Below are positions 2,671 to 37,682 of a stretch of DNA of 64,000 bases, piece by piece (position 1 is the first letter of the stretch; each line of letters begins with the position of its first letter). The notes under the pieces are model-generated. The model had not been told where the DNA came from and ran no database searches. It saw only the letters and a program-made list of their open reading frames with translations. The translations under genes and the position numbers were made by a program. The DNA is from Dyella sp. M7H15-1 (GTDB lineage Bacteria; Pseudomonadota; Gammaproteobacteria; Xanthomonadales; Rhodanobacteraceae): positions 3,162,001 through 3,226,000 of the forward strand of contig NZ_CP035300.1 in assembly GCF_004114615.1 (NCBI RefSeq). The letters are read 5' to 3'.

Positions 2671-3198
2671 ATGTCTATTGAAACCGAGTTCGAAGTTCAT
2701 CAGGAAGATCTGCGTGCACCGGTTGAACTGGTGCACGAAGAAGCTGCGGCACCGAAGAAGGCACGCCGCAAGCGCGCCGCCAAGAAGGCTGCTGCCCCGG
2801 CCAAGAAAGCTACCAAGAAGGCAGTGAAGAAAGCAGTGAAGAAGGCCGCCAAGAAGGGCGCTGCCAGGAAGGCCGTGAAGAAAGCTGCCAAGAAGGGCGC
2901 TGCCAGGAAGGCCGTGAAGAAAGCTGCCAAGAAGGGCGCTAAGAAGGGCGCCGCCAAGAAATCAGTGAAAAAGGCCGCCAAGAAAGCCAGCAAGGCCGTA
3001 AAGAAGACGGCCCGCAAAGCTGCAAAGAAGGTCAGCAGCAAAAAGACGGCCCGCCGTAAGGCCGCTACCAAGAAGACGGCCAAGAGGGCCACAAGCAAGA
3101 AAACCGCCAAGAAAGCGGGGAAGAGGTCCACTGCCAGCAAGAAGGTAGGCCGTAAAGCGACCAAGCGCGTCGCCAAGAAGGCTGCCCGCAAGAAGTAA
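2671..3198 (+). CDS. histone H1-like / AlgP-type lysine-alanine repeat protein
   Basis: 175 residues. After a short acidic N-terminus (about residues 1-30), nearly all of it is KKA, KKAAKK and ARKAVKKA repeats. This is the eukaryotic H1-tail type also seen in Pseudomonas AlgP and in many Xanthomonadales proteins. Such proteins bind DNA non-specifically and are thought to act on nucleoid structure. Start ATG 2671 has a GGAGGGG site upstream. The gene lies between the two halves of the split class II reductase and is followed by a strong terminator. Internal 39-bp tandem repeats make its length prone to change. The exact role is not known. Confidence 0.8.
   Translation: MSIETEFEVHQEDLRAPVELVHEEAAAPKKARRKRAAKKAAAPAKKATKKAVKKAVKKAAKKGAARKAVKKAAKKGAARKAVKKAAKKGAKKGAAKKSVKKAAKKASKAVKKTARKAAKKVSSKKTARRKAATKKTAKRATSKKTAKKAGKRSTASKKVGRKATKRVAKKAARKK
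2848..2940 (+). repeat. 39-bp tandem repeat inside the H1-like gene
   Basis: Two identical 39-bp units (2848-2886 and 2887-2925) are followed by the first 15 bases of a third. Each unit encodes 13 residues, AKKGAARKAVKKA, so gain or loss of units keeps the reading frame. Confidence 0.85.
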
Positions 3199-3207
3199 GT
3201 AAATGAG

Positions 3208-3245
3208 AATCCGGCCCGGTTCACACCGGGCCGGATTTCTTTTTG
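3208..3245 (+). terminator. Rho-independent terminator after the H1-like gene
   Basis: A perfect 13-bp stem (AATCCGGCCCGGT and its complement) closes a TCAC loop and is followed by TCTTTTT. It separates the nrdJa/H1-like transcript from nrdJb. Confidence 0.9.
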
Positions 3246-3345
3246 AAGCCCCTCTACCGAACACGCGAGGGGCGCCGCTCAATCAGCGCTGCCAGCGAAG
3301 GCACTCCACTCCACCACGTGTAATGCCACATCAGGAGCTTCGCCC

Positions 3346-4089
3346 ATGACGATCAAGATCGACAAAAAGATCAAGAGCTACCAAGTCGTCAAACCCGAAG
3401 ACAAACCCGCGCCCTCCGCCCAAACCGCCCCCGAGCAAGCCAAGGAAGTCCCCACGGCAGAAGTCATCCAGATGCACGAGAGCCTGGAGCGCCCCGAGGC
3501 CCTGGTCGGCTCCACCTTCAAGATCAAATCCCCGCTGTTCGAGCACGCCCTGTATGTCACCATCAACGACATCGTGCTCAACGCTGGCACCCCCTACGAG
3601 CAGCGTCGTCCCTTCGAGATATTCATCAACTCGAAGAACATGGATCACTTCCAGTGGATCGTCGCGCTCACCCGCATCCTCTCCGCTGTGTTCCGCAAAG
3701 GTGGCGACGTCACCTTCATCGTCGAAGAACTCAAGGCCGTCTTCGACCCCCGTGGCGGCTACTTCAAGTCCGGCGGCGTCTACATGCCCAGCATCGTCGC
3801 CGAGATCGGTGCGGTAATCGAGCAGCATATGAAGAACATCGGGCTCATCCATGATCCGGAGATGAGCGATGTCCAGCGTGCACTGATGGCTGAGAAGCGT
3901 GCCGCCTATGAACAGGCTGCCCAAAAAAGAATGGAGCTGAGCGCCAGCAGTCCTACGGATGCCGACATCAATGACTCGGCCGGCTTTCCGCCGGGTGCGA
4001 TGTTGTGTGTCAAGTGCAGCACCAAGGCGTTGGTGCTGATGGATGGATGTCAGACTTGTTTGAATTGTGGATATTCGAAGTGCGGTTGA
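3346..4089 (+). CDS. nrdJb: class II ribonucleotide reductase small C-terminal subunit NrdJb
   Basis: 247 residues that match the detached C-terminal portion of class II reductases (NrdJb of Pseudomonas). A conserved alpha/beta region (about 45-170; PFEIFINSKNMDHFQW, RILSAVFRKGG, DPRGGYFKSGG) is followed by a linker. The C-terminus is cysteine-rich (CVKC...CQTCLNCGYSKCG). That part is thought to bind zinc and shuttle reducing equivalents from thioredoxin to the active site of NrdJa. Start ATG 3346 follows an AGGAG site. Unlike in Pseudomonas, where the two genes are adjacent, the H1-like gene and its terminator lie between them here, so nrdJb probably needs its own promoter at about 3246-3330. 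Confidence 0.88.
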   Translation: MTIKIDKKIKSYQVVKPEDKPAPSAQTAPEQAKEVPTAEVIQMHESLERPEALVGSTFKIKSPLFEHALYVTINDIVLNAGTPYEQRRPFEIFINSKNMDHFQWIVALTRILSAVFRKGGDVTFIVEELKAVFDPRGGYFKSGGVYMPSIVAEIGAVIEQHMKNIGLIHDPEMSDVQRALMAEKRAAYEQAAQKRMELSASSPTDADINDSAGFPPGAMLCVKCSTKALVLMDGCQTCLNCGYSKCG

Positions 4090-4169
4090 AATAACCAGTC
4101 ATGAAACCACGGCAGATGAAGGTCAGCGTCACGGCGGTGAATGCCATCTTCAAAATAGGAACTCCGTCC

Positions 4170-4648
4170 TCAAGGTCGCGAGGTGCTCGGGACGACTTGA
4201 AATTCAACATATCTGTTTCTTGCCCGCACTTTCGGGATTTCGTTGTTCGCGACGGGCTCCGCACTTCCATGCCCTTCAGGGGACAACAACCGATTTTTCG
4301 CAACACCATTGGCAACCATCCAATGGAAGACCAACTTTGCACGTCGAAGCGACAAAGCGTCACACACCCTTCCACTGTATTCTTCGCTATCTGTGTGGCC
4401 CACAATCTTTATCTGGTACGGAGCCTTCAGAGCGTTGATGGCGTCCGCGTCATTTTTCAGAACCTGCAATGATTCGCTGGGTGATACCAGCGACGTATCG
4501 AGAGTACTGGTCTTCGACGGCATGCCTTCATTGAAAAAACGGCATCAATCGAAAAATCTGTTGCGAAAGCAACTTGAGAAGACGCGCAAGCCATCAAACC
4601 TAATAACAGGCTTGGCAAAATGGCGTTCCTTGTACTCCAGAATTTCAT
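4170..4648 (-). pseudogene. OmpA-like C-terminal domain lipoprotein, frameshifted in a T6 run
   Basis: The gene reads from ATG 4648. It encodes a signal peptide with a possible lipobox (LMAC, residues 18-21), then reaches VFS at a run of six T (minus strand; 4534-4539) and leaves frame. Adding one T gives VFFNEGMPSKTSTLD and continues into a clear OmpA/MotB peptidoglycan-binding domain: VGHTDS, then LSLRRAKLV, then RARNRYVEF. The restored product would be about 160 residues, a usual size for a small periplasmic OmpA-family protein anchoring to peptidoglycan. It may be a true pseudogene, a slippage-switched gene or a sequencing error in the homopolymer. Confidence 0.7.
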
Positions 4649-4941
4649 CTCCTATCTCTTCTCATTCAGTGCCCAGAAATCCATGTCTGCCCCTCCCTGG
4701 CAGTAGTCCGTTGGAGCCCGGATGGTCGCAAAAATTGACGTGATGGTTTTGTGAAATATCCCCCCAATTTCTCCGCTTTGAGGGGCCGTAGGGAGGTTCT
4801 AAGCCAGAGATACCCCTCTTCGAAGTAAGATTGGACTCGGTGATAGCGTTGACTTCCGGGATGGAAATCAAGCTGGGTGTTGGGTCAAAAAAAATGAGCA
4901 ACATTTTCTATATCTTGGGGAGAGGTAGTCGTGCGGACAAC
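4649..4941. other. intergenic stretch with no recognised feature
   Basis: Between the start of the broken OmpA-like gene and the tRNA terminator I see no ORF with coding character, no RNA motif and no repeat. It may hold the promoter of the OmpA-like gene. Confidence 0.5.
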
Positions 4942-4971
4942 AAAAAAAGCCCGCGCGTCGGCGAGCTTTTT
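4942..4971 (-). terminator. Rho-independent terminator of the tRNA cluster
   Basis: Read on the minus strand, AAAAAGC, an internal CGC stem and GCTTTTTTT form an 11-bp stem with a short loop, ending in a run of T. It lies 22 bases beyond the 3' end of tRNA-Asp. Confidence 0.8.
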
Positions 4972-4993
4972 GTGGCCTGCATTTTTCAGTAAT

Positions 4994-5070
4994 TGGCGGA
5001 GCGGACGGGACTCGAACCCGCGACCTCCGGCGTGACAGGCCAGCATTCTAACCGACTGAACTACCGCTCC
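4994..5070 (-). tRNA. tRNA-Asp (anticodon GTC)
   Basis: 77 nt including an encoded CCA. Acceptor GGAGCGG pairs with CCGCTCC. The anticodon loop CTGTCAC gives GTC, and the T-arm GCGGGTTCGAACCCG is intact. It is last in a three-tRNA transcript (Ala, Glu, Asp). Confidence 0.97.
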
Positions 5071-5159
5071 GCATTGTTACTGCCTTCCAGCGCACTCAAA
5101 CACACTAAAGTCCTTTTCCACTTTACCTCGACGGCTAAAAGTTGGCTGCCGGTTTAAAG

Positions 5160-34011: not shown

Positions 34012-35119
34012 GTGCGCCCGGCAGGGCGCACCTGCTAGGAGGTGCAAGTCCTCCACTCGCCTGGCAAGGGGAAGAGTTAGCCAGAGGCAAGGGCATTGCG
34101 GGTGACCGGATGTCTGAAGGAAGCCCGAGGCAAAACGCTGGCCTGACGAACAGGAAGCGGATACGAGGCGACGTGTTGGGGTAAGGCAGCAAGAATTGTC
34201 AAAGCCCAAAACGTGTCCGGACGACACGGCGTATATCCGACAGGCCTAAGCGGGAAAGCAGGTGTGTCATACCCGGGGAGATCTCGCCTCATGCCTGAAA
34301 GGGCGACGCGGTAACGCGGAGCGAGAAGTCAGCAGAGGCCATAGTAGGTGCAGTAAGACCGAAGGGCCGAACATGAGAGACCGTGATGAGGACGGCCAAG
34401 ACTCGATGATCGTCGACGAAGCAGAAGCCCAAACCAGCGGGGCCACGAGCCAAGGTACGGAACAGTATTCCGGAGAGGGGCACGGTGGTGCGGAGGCGAT
34501 CACGGCGTGGGCTGAGCAAACGAAAGCGGAGAAGTCACGGCTGATGGAGGCCGTGGTCGAGCGTAACAACCTGATGGCGGCGTACCAGAAGGTGGTTCGC
34601 AACGGTGGCGGACCGGGTGTTGATGGCGTGCCGGTGGGATCGTTGCGTGACTGGCTGAAGGTGCACTGGCCACGTGTGAAGGAAGCCTTGTTGGACGGAC
34701 GCTACCTGCCGGCGGCGGTGCGCGCGGTGGACATCCCCAAGCCCTCGGGCGGGGTGCGGACACTAGGCATACCGACGGTGCTGGATCGACTGATCCAACA
34801 GGCCGTTCTGCAAATCCTGCAACCCATCGTTGAACCAAGCTTTTCCCGATCAAGCTATGGCTTTCGGCCAGGGCGTAACGCACACCAAGCGGTCAAGGCG
34901 GCCAAGCAGTATGTGCAGCAAGGACACCGCTGGGTGGTGGACATTGATCTGGAGAAGTTCTTTGATCGGGTCAACCACGACATGTTGATGTCGCGGGTGG
35001 CCCGGCATGTGGAAGACGAACGGGTGCTCAAGCTGATTCGTCGTTACCTGGAAGCGGGGCTGATGCGTGATGGGATGATCGGAGCGCGAGAGACCGGTAC
35101 ACCGCAAGGTGGTCCGCTG

Positions 35120-36597
35120 ACGCCTCGAACAATGTTGCATACTTTTCATTCCGTCGCCCGAATCATTCGAATCCTCGCTGGTGAGCGCTCCCGGCTGCGG
35201 ATCAACCCTGAACACAACGACGATGTCGTCCTTGTGGATTTCGACGCGCTTGACCAGGCCCAATACGATCCTGCGCTTCGTTTCCAGGTCAAGCGTGCCA
35301 AGTTTCTTGCTAAGGGCACCTGCAAATTCCTCAAGCCGATTGATGACCAGAAATAGTTCGCGTTGTACGGCCCCTTGTTGCCTTGACTCAAGGATCTGCT
35401 GGTCAATCTGCTCAAGCCGGCCCTTCAGTTGCTGCATCTTCGGCTCAAAGTCGGTCTTATCAATGATCCCATCTGCATAGCTATCGATCAGCCTGGACTT
35501 GCCTTTTTCCAGTTGCAACCGCTGCTTTTCAAGGCTGCTCGTATCGAAGCTATTTCTTTCATTGCGCTCCATCATATCCAGTCGACGCTGATATTCGTTC
35601 TTCAATCGCTCCGGATGTCTAAGTAATTCCACTACCTGCTGCCATACCAGATCATCGAGTTTGTCCGTTCGAACCTGCAGATTGTCACAGATGCGTTGAC
35701 CGCCGAAACGATAGGCGTCGGTTCCAACACAGCGATAATAGGCATAGTCTCGCGGATGGCTCTTGGACGCGGCCTTGCTCACCTTTTTCGCATAGTAAGC
35801 GTAGTGACATTGACCGCAGACTGTCAGTCCTTGCAGCAGACGCAGCGGCGCACTCTCGCGCCTCTGGCGTGCCAGCTTGCGGTTCTCGACGAGTTGTTCT
35901 TGCGCCGATTCAAACAGCGCCGCGCTGATGATGGCTGGCACCGGAATCTCGATCCAGTCTTGTGGGTCGGTACGTGTTGTTGAATGCGGTTTTTTTGGCA
36001 CGTCAGCACTATGACGCTGGGCACGCACGCGCACCTGCAGGTGATCGCACGACTTCGTCTTGCCGAACGCAGCCCGCCCCATGTACGCAGGATAATGTAA
36101 CGGTAGCCGTAGGGTGCCCCGGACAGGACATTGACGCTGCCACGTTTTGCGCCGTGAAGCTTGCCACGGCGGTGACGTTCGGTGATCTTCGCCCGCTCGT
36201 ATTCCGCGATCATGCCCTGCATCTGCAGTAGCAGTGATTCTTCCGGTGACGCACCGATGGCGTGATTGAGGAACACGACCTGCATGCCACAAGCTGTGAA
36301 CTCTTCCATCAGCAATGCCTGGTGCGCATATTTGCGCGCCAGCCGGTCCGGTGACAGGATGTAGAGCTGGTCGATCGTGCTGAGCGCAGCACAGTCCCTG
36401 AGTCGCTCTAGCTGTGGCCTGATGAGCGTCGCACCACTCACGCCAGCGTCAACGAAACACATGTCATCGGCGATCTGCGCGCCATCAGCTGAAATACGCT
36501 CCTTCAGTGCAGCCAGCTGGCTTTCAATGGTGCCGCGTTTGTTTTGCTGCTCGGAGGATACCCGCGCATAGAGCGCGACCATCGTATCTTTGCTCAT
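35120..36597 (-). pseudogene. large serine recombinase with an internal frameshifting deletion
   Basis: Starts at ATG 36597. The N-terminal resolvase domain has the catalytic serine (ALYARVSSEQQ), DAGVSG, DRLARKYAHQ and ITERHRRGK. At about 36091-36098 the frame breaks: APYGYRYI runs straight into the out-of-frame YPAYMGRAAFG, so roughly 60 residues of the recombinase domain appear deleted. The rest, in the other frame, holds the end of that domain (WIEIPVPAI), a zinc ribbon (CGQCHYAYY... YRCVG), the coiled coil and a conserved end (RRIVLGLVKRVEI). The frame has no stop before the element's left edge and runs antisense into the maturase gene. It should be inactive. Confidence 0.8.
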
Positions 36598-36776
36598 CGT
36601 CTACCTCGCTTGGTGGTCGCTTGCCTGGTCATTGCAGACGGCTTCGCGGACGGCTTTGCCGTGGACCGTGCTTCGATGGGATTGATTTGCTCGTACGCCT
36701 TTTGCAGCTGTTCCTGGGCGTGGCGGTTCGGCTCGAAGGCCAGATGTACCCGCCATTGTTTACGTCCTCGGCTCAT
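36594..36776 (-). CDS. small basic protein coupled to the serine recombinase
   Basis: 60 residues from ATG 36776 (GTG 36779 is in frame), preceded by AGGAAGG. It opens MSRGRKQWRVHLAFEPNRHA, has a short helix (QLQKAYEQINPIE) and a lysine/arginine-rich tail. Its stop overlaps the recombinase start (ATGA), so the two are co-translated. I do not know the family. Size, charge and position suggest a DNA-binding accessory factor, for example a directionality or regulatory protein, but that is inference. The reading frame itself is intact. Confidence 0.55.
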   Translation of the reverse strand: MSRGRKQWRVHLAFEPNRHAQEQLQKAYEQINPIEARSTAKPSAKPSAMTRQATTKRGRR

Positions 36777-37612
36777 CACCGCACCTTCCTGTCAGTGGGA
36801 GTGACCGTCTCAAGGACGAGGTTCACATCAACCTTGGAGCAGCTTCTGGACCACGGCGCCAAACACCCCCTTGAAATGCGCAGGCCCCATTTTAAGCGAC
36901 AGTTTGCTCTGTTGTTGGTGGCGTTCTGTCGCCCTTGTTATCGAACATCCTGCTCACGGATGGTGATCGCGAACTAGAGCGGCGAGGTCACGCGTTCTGC
37001 CGCTACGCGGACGACGGCAATATTTATGTCCGCAGCGAAAAGGCAGGACAGCGCGTACTGACCAGCATGACATCGTTTCTTGAGAAACGGCTGAAACTGC
37101 GGGTCAACAGCGCCAAAAGCGCGTGCGCGCGGCCAAGTGAACGTAAGTTCCTTGGCTACACGCTGACGCACAGCGGAGGCCGGTTACGGTTACGCTTTGC
37201 CGAGGAAAGCGCAGCGCGTCTGCGCAACCGTGTGCGTGAGCAGTTGCGTCAGGGGCGAGGTCGAAGTTTGAAGCGAACCATCGAAAGCTTAAATCCGATG
37301 CTTCGCGGTTGGGCGAACTACTTCGGCCTCGGCGAGAGCAAGCAAGCGTGGGAGGAGCTGGACGGCTGGATACGGCGTCGGTTGCGTGGTTTGATCTGGC
37401 GACAAGCCAAGACGCGCCGACGACGCACGGAGTTGTTACGCAAAGGAGGCTTGACGGAAGAGCGGGCGTGGCACTCGGCCCGAAACGGGCATGGTCCGTG
37501 GTGGAACGCCGGAGCCAGTCATATGAACCACGCTTTTCCAAAAGCCTTCTTCGATAGGCTGGGCTTGGTCAGTTTGGCCAGCACGGCTCGCTATCTCCAG
37601 CGTCTGGCATGA

Positions 37613-37682
37613 ACCGCCGTATGCGGAACCGCACGTACGGTGGTGTGGGAGGGGGCCGGGGTATCCCGGCTCCCTACCCGAT
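37613..37682 (+). ncRNA. group II intron domains V and VI
   Basis: The catalytic domain V hairpin is recognisable as CCGTATGCGG, a tetraloop-like turn and CCGCACGTACGG. Domain VI follows as a GC-rich hairpin (GGGAGGGGGCCGGG / CCCGGCTCCC) carrying the branch region. The inferred 3' splice boundary is ACCCGAT at 37682. Confidence 0.75.

Follow-up and report, generated by a model that had tools for sequence, protein, structure and literature searches.

A small serine-recombinase element inserted at the conserved reverse transcriptase motif of group II intron maturase genes

Results

In the window, the 64,000-nucleotide stretch of the Dyella sp. M7H15-1 genome that was analysed, we have identified a group II intron whose maturase gene is interrupted by a small element carrying a large serine recombinase gene antisense to the maturase (Table 1). 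The intron was recognized by Rfam matches to its ribozyme domains together with Pfam matches to a reverse transcriptase/maturase with a GIIM domain. It starts with GTGCG directly behind the terminator of a csp gene, ends with domains V-VI and measures about 1.86 kb without the inserted element; its terminator-side position suggests that it belongs to class C. A preliminary description of this DNA, made from the sequence alone, had claimed that removal of the element restores a 476-codon frame. Indeed, the flanks joined across the element form one frame, ...GARETGTPQGGPL-SPLLSNILL..., of 249 + 227 codons; it ends with the stop at 37612, and its start, the ATG at 34373, was picked to give 476 codons. 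The coordinates given there and the CTG shared by the two junctions are correct as well, and the insertion does lie inside the maturase at its reverse transcriptase motif, which is cut at GTPQGGP-L-SP.

Table 1. Features of the interrupted intron and of the inserted element (window coordinates)
Feature	Position	Strand	Remarks
Group II intron with interrupted maturase	34012..37682	+	outer ends putative, read from sequence
Rfam group-II-D1D4-3	34096-34267
Rfam D1D4-1	34304-34367
Rfam Intron_gpII	37612-37682
Maturase, N-terminal part	34373..35119	+	Pfam RVT_1 7.7e-23 on 34262-35119, RVT_1 positions 1-125; ends ...GTPQGGPL
Target codon L, N-side junction	35117-35119	+	CTG
Inserted element, invariant part	35120..36925	-	from the empty site and five same-ended genome copies
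Left terminal inverted repeat	35120..35132	+	11/13 bases match right repeat
Large serine recombinase gene, broken	35120..36597	-	internal deletion of ~199 bp near 36093/36094
Small second gene, 61 aa	36594..36779	-	stop overlaps recombinase start codon
Right terminal inverted repeat	36912..36924	-	11/13 bases match left repeat
Target codon L, C-side junction	36926-36928	+	CTG
Maturase, C-terminal part	36929..37612	+	on 36935-37612: GIIM 1.1e-20, RVT_1 positions 129-205 2.5e-10; begins SPLLSN

Apart from one copy of the shared codon, the element in the window is 1,806 bp long. Its imperfect terminal inverted repeats, already noted in the preliminary description, agree at 11 of 13 positions, a likeness equalled by only about 3 in 100,000 random 13-mer pairs from the same element. 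Target duplications of a transposon type, named beforehand as a finding that would speak against a specialist element, were not seen beyond the shared codon when junctions and empty sites were compared, and a transposon-type insertion was rejected for this reason.

Compared with its sibling copies, the recombinase gene in the window lacks about 199 bp, carries a frameshift and lies in two frames, and its separate pieces match the Pfam families Resolvase (1.3e-31), Recombinase (7e-5) and zinc ribbon (9.9e-11). An intact sibling (L010:4044-5720) matches Resolvase (9.9e-31), Recombinase (2.9e-20) and zinc ribbon (1.9e-10), with PF00239, PF07508 and PF13408 all above their cut-offs, the Resolvase domain at residues 7-154 and the others after it. 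A recombinase profile search against the PDB matched the TP901-1 and A118 integrases, and S14 and S15, candidates for the catalytic serine near the N terminus, are both invariant in an alignment of three recombinase sequences. In the window, as in the copies that were translated, the recombinase gene has no stop codon of its own, its frame reading on across the element boundary into the maturase flank.

The small gene in front of the recombinase is present in 17 of 20 relatives examined, with a length of about 60 codons, and an alignment of the 17 sequences shows E16, R19 and Y29 to be invariant. It has no Pfam or NCBIfam match, and its AlphaFold model is one helix of low confidence (pLDDT 60). 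CopG-family genes annotated by NCBI upstream of the recombinase in a second clade of relatives had led to the guess of a ribbon-helix-helix protein, which was dropped in view of this single helix and the missing family match. As a small conserved gene, it is only a candidate for a directionality factor.

Five copies of the element were found in the window's own genome, all at the same maturase codon and with the same ends. The intact siblings measure 2.0 kb; the copies at 566443 and 143932 have an intact recombinase with 559 residues within the element, and the two proteins are 100% identical. The window copy has its deletion of about 199 bp in common with the copy at 1113708; it is a dead, internally deleted descendant of a family that is not dead. 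In the copy at 437640 (437640-442286, L011), about 2.6 kb of additional DNA lies inside the recombinase gene. Among the maturase flanks of the five copies there are two N-half types and three C-half types, combined as A-A (window), B-A, A-C, A-B and B-B, and the stretches that they share are 99-100% identical over 214-754 bp. Three kinds of C-half require at least three insertion events, and the mixed pairs of halves indicate that the copies have recombined with each other.

The genome gave 14 RVT_1 matches, ten of which are the halves of the five interrupted maturases. The remaining matches correspond to profile positions 1-97, 1-81, 1-65 and 124-176, so that none of them spans the target, and neither the RVT_1 matches nor a search with the motif pattern described below revealed a maturase with a free target site in this genome. 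At 1035578-1036515 (L014, L032) lies an A-type sister of the window intron, in whose maturase an internal deletion has removed the target.

Uninterrupted relatives exist elsewhere. The closest one found, an intron annotated as ltrA on a plasmid of Paraburkholderia largidicola (L157), matches the N flank of the window at 201-1329 and the C flank at 1330-2081, the two matches directly abutting at the insertion point, with CTG as its native codon and DNA identities of 76% and 70% to the two flanks. A second empty relative, on pOLGA1, reads GTG-ATC-AGT where the maturase of Cupriavidus KK10 is interrupted.

To look beyond this genome, genome contigs were scanned with the three-sequence recombinase alignment, which fetched 53 loci; as only the recombinase sequence was used, maturases were not selected for. 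Forty of the 53 lie in a maturase at the same codon, 39 of them by tblastn of the maturase halves and one (L086) by reading both junctions. Two more, as read from the sequence, are inserted in group II intron domain V, L080 and, by its 3′ flank, L085; a fold of the joined L080 flanks gave no clear verdict. These two elements occupy about 3160-5125 (L080, with an intact-looking maturase upstream) and about 1-1970 (L085). Five loci are uninformative, four being 286-bp fragments (L092-L095) and one (L096) giving no recombinase match on re-search, and six are elsewhere or unclear (L059, L073, L074, L075, L084, L091). The same 286-bp recombinase fragment is present in four Pseudomonas and Stutzerimonas genomes (L092-L095:3501-3786), and in L093 a group II intron D1-D4 match lies near it.

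After 27 re-fetched duplicates had been dropped, the census, plasmid and whole-genome loci amounted to 90 non-duplicate loci, among which those within one genus are not independent events. A maturase half stands at the junction in 63 of the 90 and both halves in 39, all 39 being consistent in orientation; relative to the recombinase, the maturase runs in the same direction in 35 of the 63 and in the opposite one in 28. The flank DNA falls into 41 N-side and 42 C-side clusters at 85% identity (32 and 28 at 75%). Measured from the recombinase, the junctions lie at about -325 to -329 and +2 to +5 in clade I of the recombinase tree, and at about -570 to -600 and +26 to +83 in most of clade II; the same offsets recur in independent records from many species and sequencing projects. 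In L069 (100-500 and 2120-2690), maturase C-halves lie inverted on both sides of the element, an arrangement expected if copies had recombined. Another type of serine recombinase (MSDTANKIG.../MMTDTANKIG...) was observed just upstream of interrupted introns on pWW53 and KK10 (L042:2166-4372, L040:2711-4387).

Several replicons point to recent movement. The KK10 plasmid of Cupriavidus carries four copies in four maturases; the L122 element is 99.7% identical though the maturases are unrelated in DNA, and in L124 and L125, whose maturases are alike, the identity of 98.4-98.5% holds over a match that extends into the flanks. Genome G035 has three elements, 99.6-99.9% identical, in three maturases and in both orientations. 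Moreover, single target clusters have been entered in both directions, on the N side (pWW53 and L062 versus JR-1; L057 versus L090) as well as on the C side (L056 versus CSW02; L088 versus L124).

The preliminary description had suggested that the element may be a specialist parasite of mobile introns, a reading supported by 40 of 53 loci fetched through the recombinase and by all five copies in the window's genome. It had also stated that copies in unrelated targets, with no preference for maturase genes, would refute this reading. The census does not refute it: most copies do sit at the maturase codon, but L059, L170 and probably L091 are off-target. The further suggestion that any genome with such an intron may be open to the element gains support from the distribution over several phyla.

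The consensus target is DNA encoding PQGG-x-[LIV]-SP; the break falls on bases 1 and 2 of the L/I/V codon, in most cases AT, CT or GT. Comparison of junctions places the crossover better at these two bases than between L and S, where it had been put before. In the window's genome, a 23-base motif pattern matched only the occupied N-side junctions (3/3), and its reversed control nothing (0); it found three of three maturases in the L046 genome and three of five in the L086 genome. The pattern is rare, with 0-5 matches per genome or replicon, mostly in maturases. On the KK10 plasmid it has 0 matches, and the element there evidently uses variants of the motif.

In large serine recombinases, the central dinucleotide is as a rule identical in attP and attB. 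Here, the dinucleotides at both ends are equal in 16 of 30 copies and unequal in 14 (33 rows less three with damaged flanks). Equal dinucleotides were seen in 11 of 15 same-orientation insertions versus 5 of 15 opposite ones, a core rule that is suggestive only, given a Fisher P of 0.066 and given that copy-to-copy recombination could also mix the cores. On KK10, the N-side dinucleotide is AG in 4/4 copies and the C-side ones are AT, GT, GT and GT; we infer that the C-side dinucleotide is native, so that one junction would keep the bases of the element and the other those of the target.

A quick maximum-likelihood tree was made of 74 recombinases, leaving aside proteins of less than 380 residues and three of the own copies (window, c437, c1113). 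In clade I, 39 of 40 rows are at the maturase site. In clade II, from Actinomycetota and Alphaproteobacteria, several members of which have the CopG-family gene in front, all 11 tree rows are in a maturase; of two clade II loci fetched later, L171 lies at a maturase and L170 apparently in a Tn3-like transposase gene, which makes 12 of 13. Four further maturase-site rows (L068, L069, L070, L079) stand among mixed lineages, and none of six outgroup recombinases (0/6) is in a maturase. The fewest changes between maturase and non-maturase sites on this tree are six; its deep order is unsure owing to long branches and to support by SH-aLRT only.

L059, with a recombinase 90% identical, sits in a non-maturase gene which we take, from its reading, to be like pyruvate phosphate dikinase (PPDK-like). 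L091 has a non-maturase 5′ flank and is probably off-target. In Streptomyces sp. NBC_00842 (L170:2018-5101), a clade II recombinase stands beside, and apparently within, the Tn3-like transposase gene (DUF4158). A sister clade of three (L105, L111, L149; SH-aLRT 98) lies within IS5-type transposase genes, at a VERTFAWLGR motif, and transposase sequence could be read on both sides of the element. The 5′ flank of L111 matches DUF4096 (8e-29) and DDE_Tnp_1 (6.5e-24) and its 3′ tail has no match; in L105 and L149, the short 3′ tails correspond to DDE_Tnp_1 positions 163-200, just below the cut-off. Relatives of the element appear to specialise on other conserved sequences of mobile elements.

Discussion

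The comparison of loci establishes, at the level of sequence, a precise insertion at one codon, an empty site, occupation of dozens of maturases in both orientations and reassortment of the flanks, and the specialist interpretation is by now supported far beyond the one locus in the window. Very probably, we are dealing with a small element that integrates autonomously, by means of a recombinase that recognises the DNA of the group II reverse transcriptase motif PQGG-x-[LIV]-SP. The specialisation on maturases is strong, not absolute, and insertion takes place in both orientations.

The mobility of the element and its strand exchange we infer from these comparisons, and the following course may be proposed. 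The element would consist of terminal attachment half-sites, one large serine recombinase and one small accessory gene. Its circular form, with the ends joined about GGCGTA-NN-AACGCC, would be nearly palindromic, and the circle would recombine with a maturase site of about CCGCAAGGNGG-NNN-[NT]-NTCNCC. Strands would be exchanged with a two-base stagger at positions 1-2 of the L/I/V codon, and mismatch would be tolerated; as the central bases need not match, the element could enter in either direction. Replication or repair would then resolve a mismatched core, leaving the dinucleotide of the element at one junction and that of the target at the other. The maturase may serve as a harmless address that is present in many copies and moves horizontally, the price being that the intron loses its own mobility, and later recombination between copies would shuffle the maturase halves.

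Perhaps the recombinase is a relaxed one with many targets, and maturases are common among them only because of a high frequency of the motif or an abundance of introns. Serine recombinases with multiple targets have been described (PMC10083194), and the off-target members L059, L091 and L170 would fit this view. Nevertheless, the uniform own-genome copies and tree rows of both clades (5/5, 39/40 and 11/11), always at one codon, and a motif pattern that is rare and met mostly in maturases leave this explanation very improbable.

Equally small is the chance that the element is programmed or serves its host, either by a controlled excision that restores the maturase, as with fdxN/XisF and skin, or by being kept for the silencing of introns. 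The insertion is precise, no free-site maturase was found in the window's own genome, and the best-scoring NCBIfam models are those of XisF and CcrB, both far under their cut-offs (102.9 versus 375 and 116.4 versus 900 bits). Against this, the element is rare and patchy, the recombinase being present at E 1e-40 in 3 of 398 genomes of a phylum sample and in 1 of 299 genomes from the order, namely that of the window; a clade II query, run at 1e-60, gave 1 of 289 genomes of another class. Both orientations and decayed copies are found, and with reassorted flanks excision would often yield chimeras. Separately, a phage origin was considered and rejected, as a scan of viral contigs gave 109 pattern stretches, none of them a relative.

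One may also suppose that the element was inserted once or a few times and was thereafter carried along by group II introns as they moved. Some copies do have a maturase in common (L055/L072; L124/L125; window/c566/c437), and the window intron retains parts of D1-D4 and domain V. However, the number of flank clusters, the entry of one target cluster in both orientations and the near-identical elements in unrelated maturases of one replicon already contradict such a spread for most copies, and an interrupted maturase could not serve its own intron; we give this account scarcely any credence. Lastly, an artefact of assembly or of homologous recombination at a conserved motif, which the reassorted flanks in the window's genome might recall, is already refuted by the cross-species junctions, with the same offsets in independent records of many species and projects, and by the existence of empty sites, and its probability is next to nil.

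The specialist element that we favour looks like a parasite of parasites, reading a sequence that its victim can hardly change, for the reverse transcriptase needs the motif that is its target. We would then have a DNA element whose special target, across bacteria, is a protein-coding motif within other mobile elements. The choice of such a target has a plain logic: it does the cell no harm and is met in many copies and in many genomes. A wider view, which we hold tentatively and at somewhat less than even chances, is that of a small serine-recombinase lineage with other mobile elements as its habitat. Each clade would read a part that the host element cannot easily change, namely the reverse transcriptase motif PQGG-x-L-SP, domain V, VERTFAWLGR of IS5-type elements or, once, a Tn3-like transposase, and such hyperparasites, harmless to the cell, would ride on and disable their hosts and would thereby naturally restrain group II introns. 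The maturase-targeting element raises the questions of how a serine recombinase reads a codon-degenerate motif, whether mismatch in its central dinucleotide is allowed and whether group II introns are limited in this way; it also provides recombinases whose attB sites occur naturally and are defined by a motif. Our search, which covered the open-licence literature, yielded no account of a serine recombinase directed against group II maturases, and the novelty of a maturase-targeting element is provisional.

Among known systems, the element is like the large serine recombinases of phages TP901-1 and A118, phiC31 and Bxb1 being further serine integrases of this kind, in the order of Resolvase, Recombinase and zinc ribbon domains, in the precise insertion without target duplication, in the quasi-palindromic attachment site and in having its attB in a host gene. 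Unlike these, the element family has two genes in about 2 kb and no phage or cargo genes; its attB lies in another mobile element, it is found in both orientations, and the dinucleotide apparently need not match.

The multi-copy, transposon-like behaviour resembles that of a multi-targeting clade of large serine recombinases, 63% of which have DUF4368 (Durrant et al. 2022, PMC10083194). DUF4368 is absent from the three recombinases of the element family that were scanned. In contrast to that clade, the element uses one conserved protein motif, and neither maturases nor ‘reverse transcriptase’ are named in the consulted passages of PMC10083194.

IS607 elements are likewise small serine-recombinase elements without target duplication, although they have the DNA-binding domain ahead of the catalytic one and minimal target specificity (PMC4058570, PMC6188088), whereas in the present element the catalytic domain leads and a single motif is the target. 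Membership in IS607 was rejected, with Resolvase at residues 7-154, the other domains after it and 29.3 bits against an NCBIfam cut-off of 110. XisF of the fdxN element and Ccr of SCC elements are the closest full-length NCBIfam equivalogs and belong to elements inserted in a conserved gene, yet their targets are different and the present element has no cargo; equivalence to either was rejected, as the scores given above are below the curated cut-offs. Finally, IStrons also nest a DNA element closely with a self-splicing intron. In them, a group I intron and an IS are joined in one element (PMC4227781), whereas in our case the protein gene belonging to a group II intron has been entered by a separate element.
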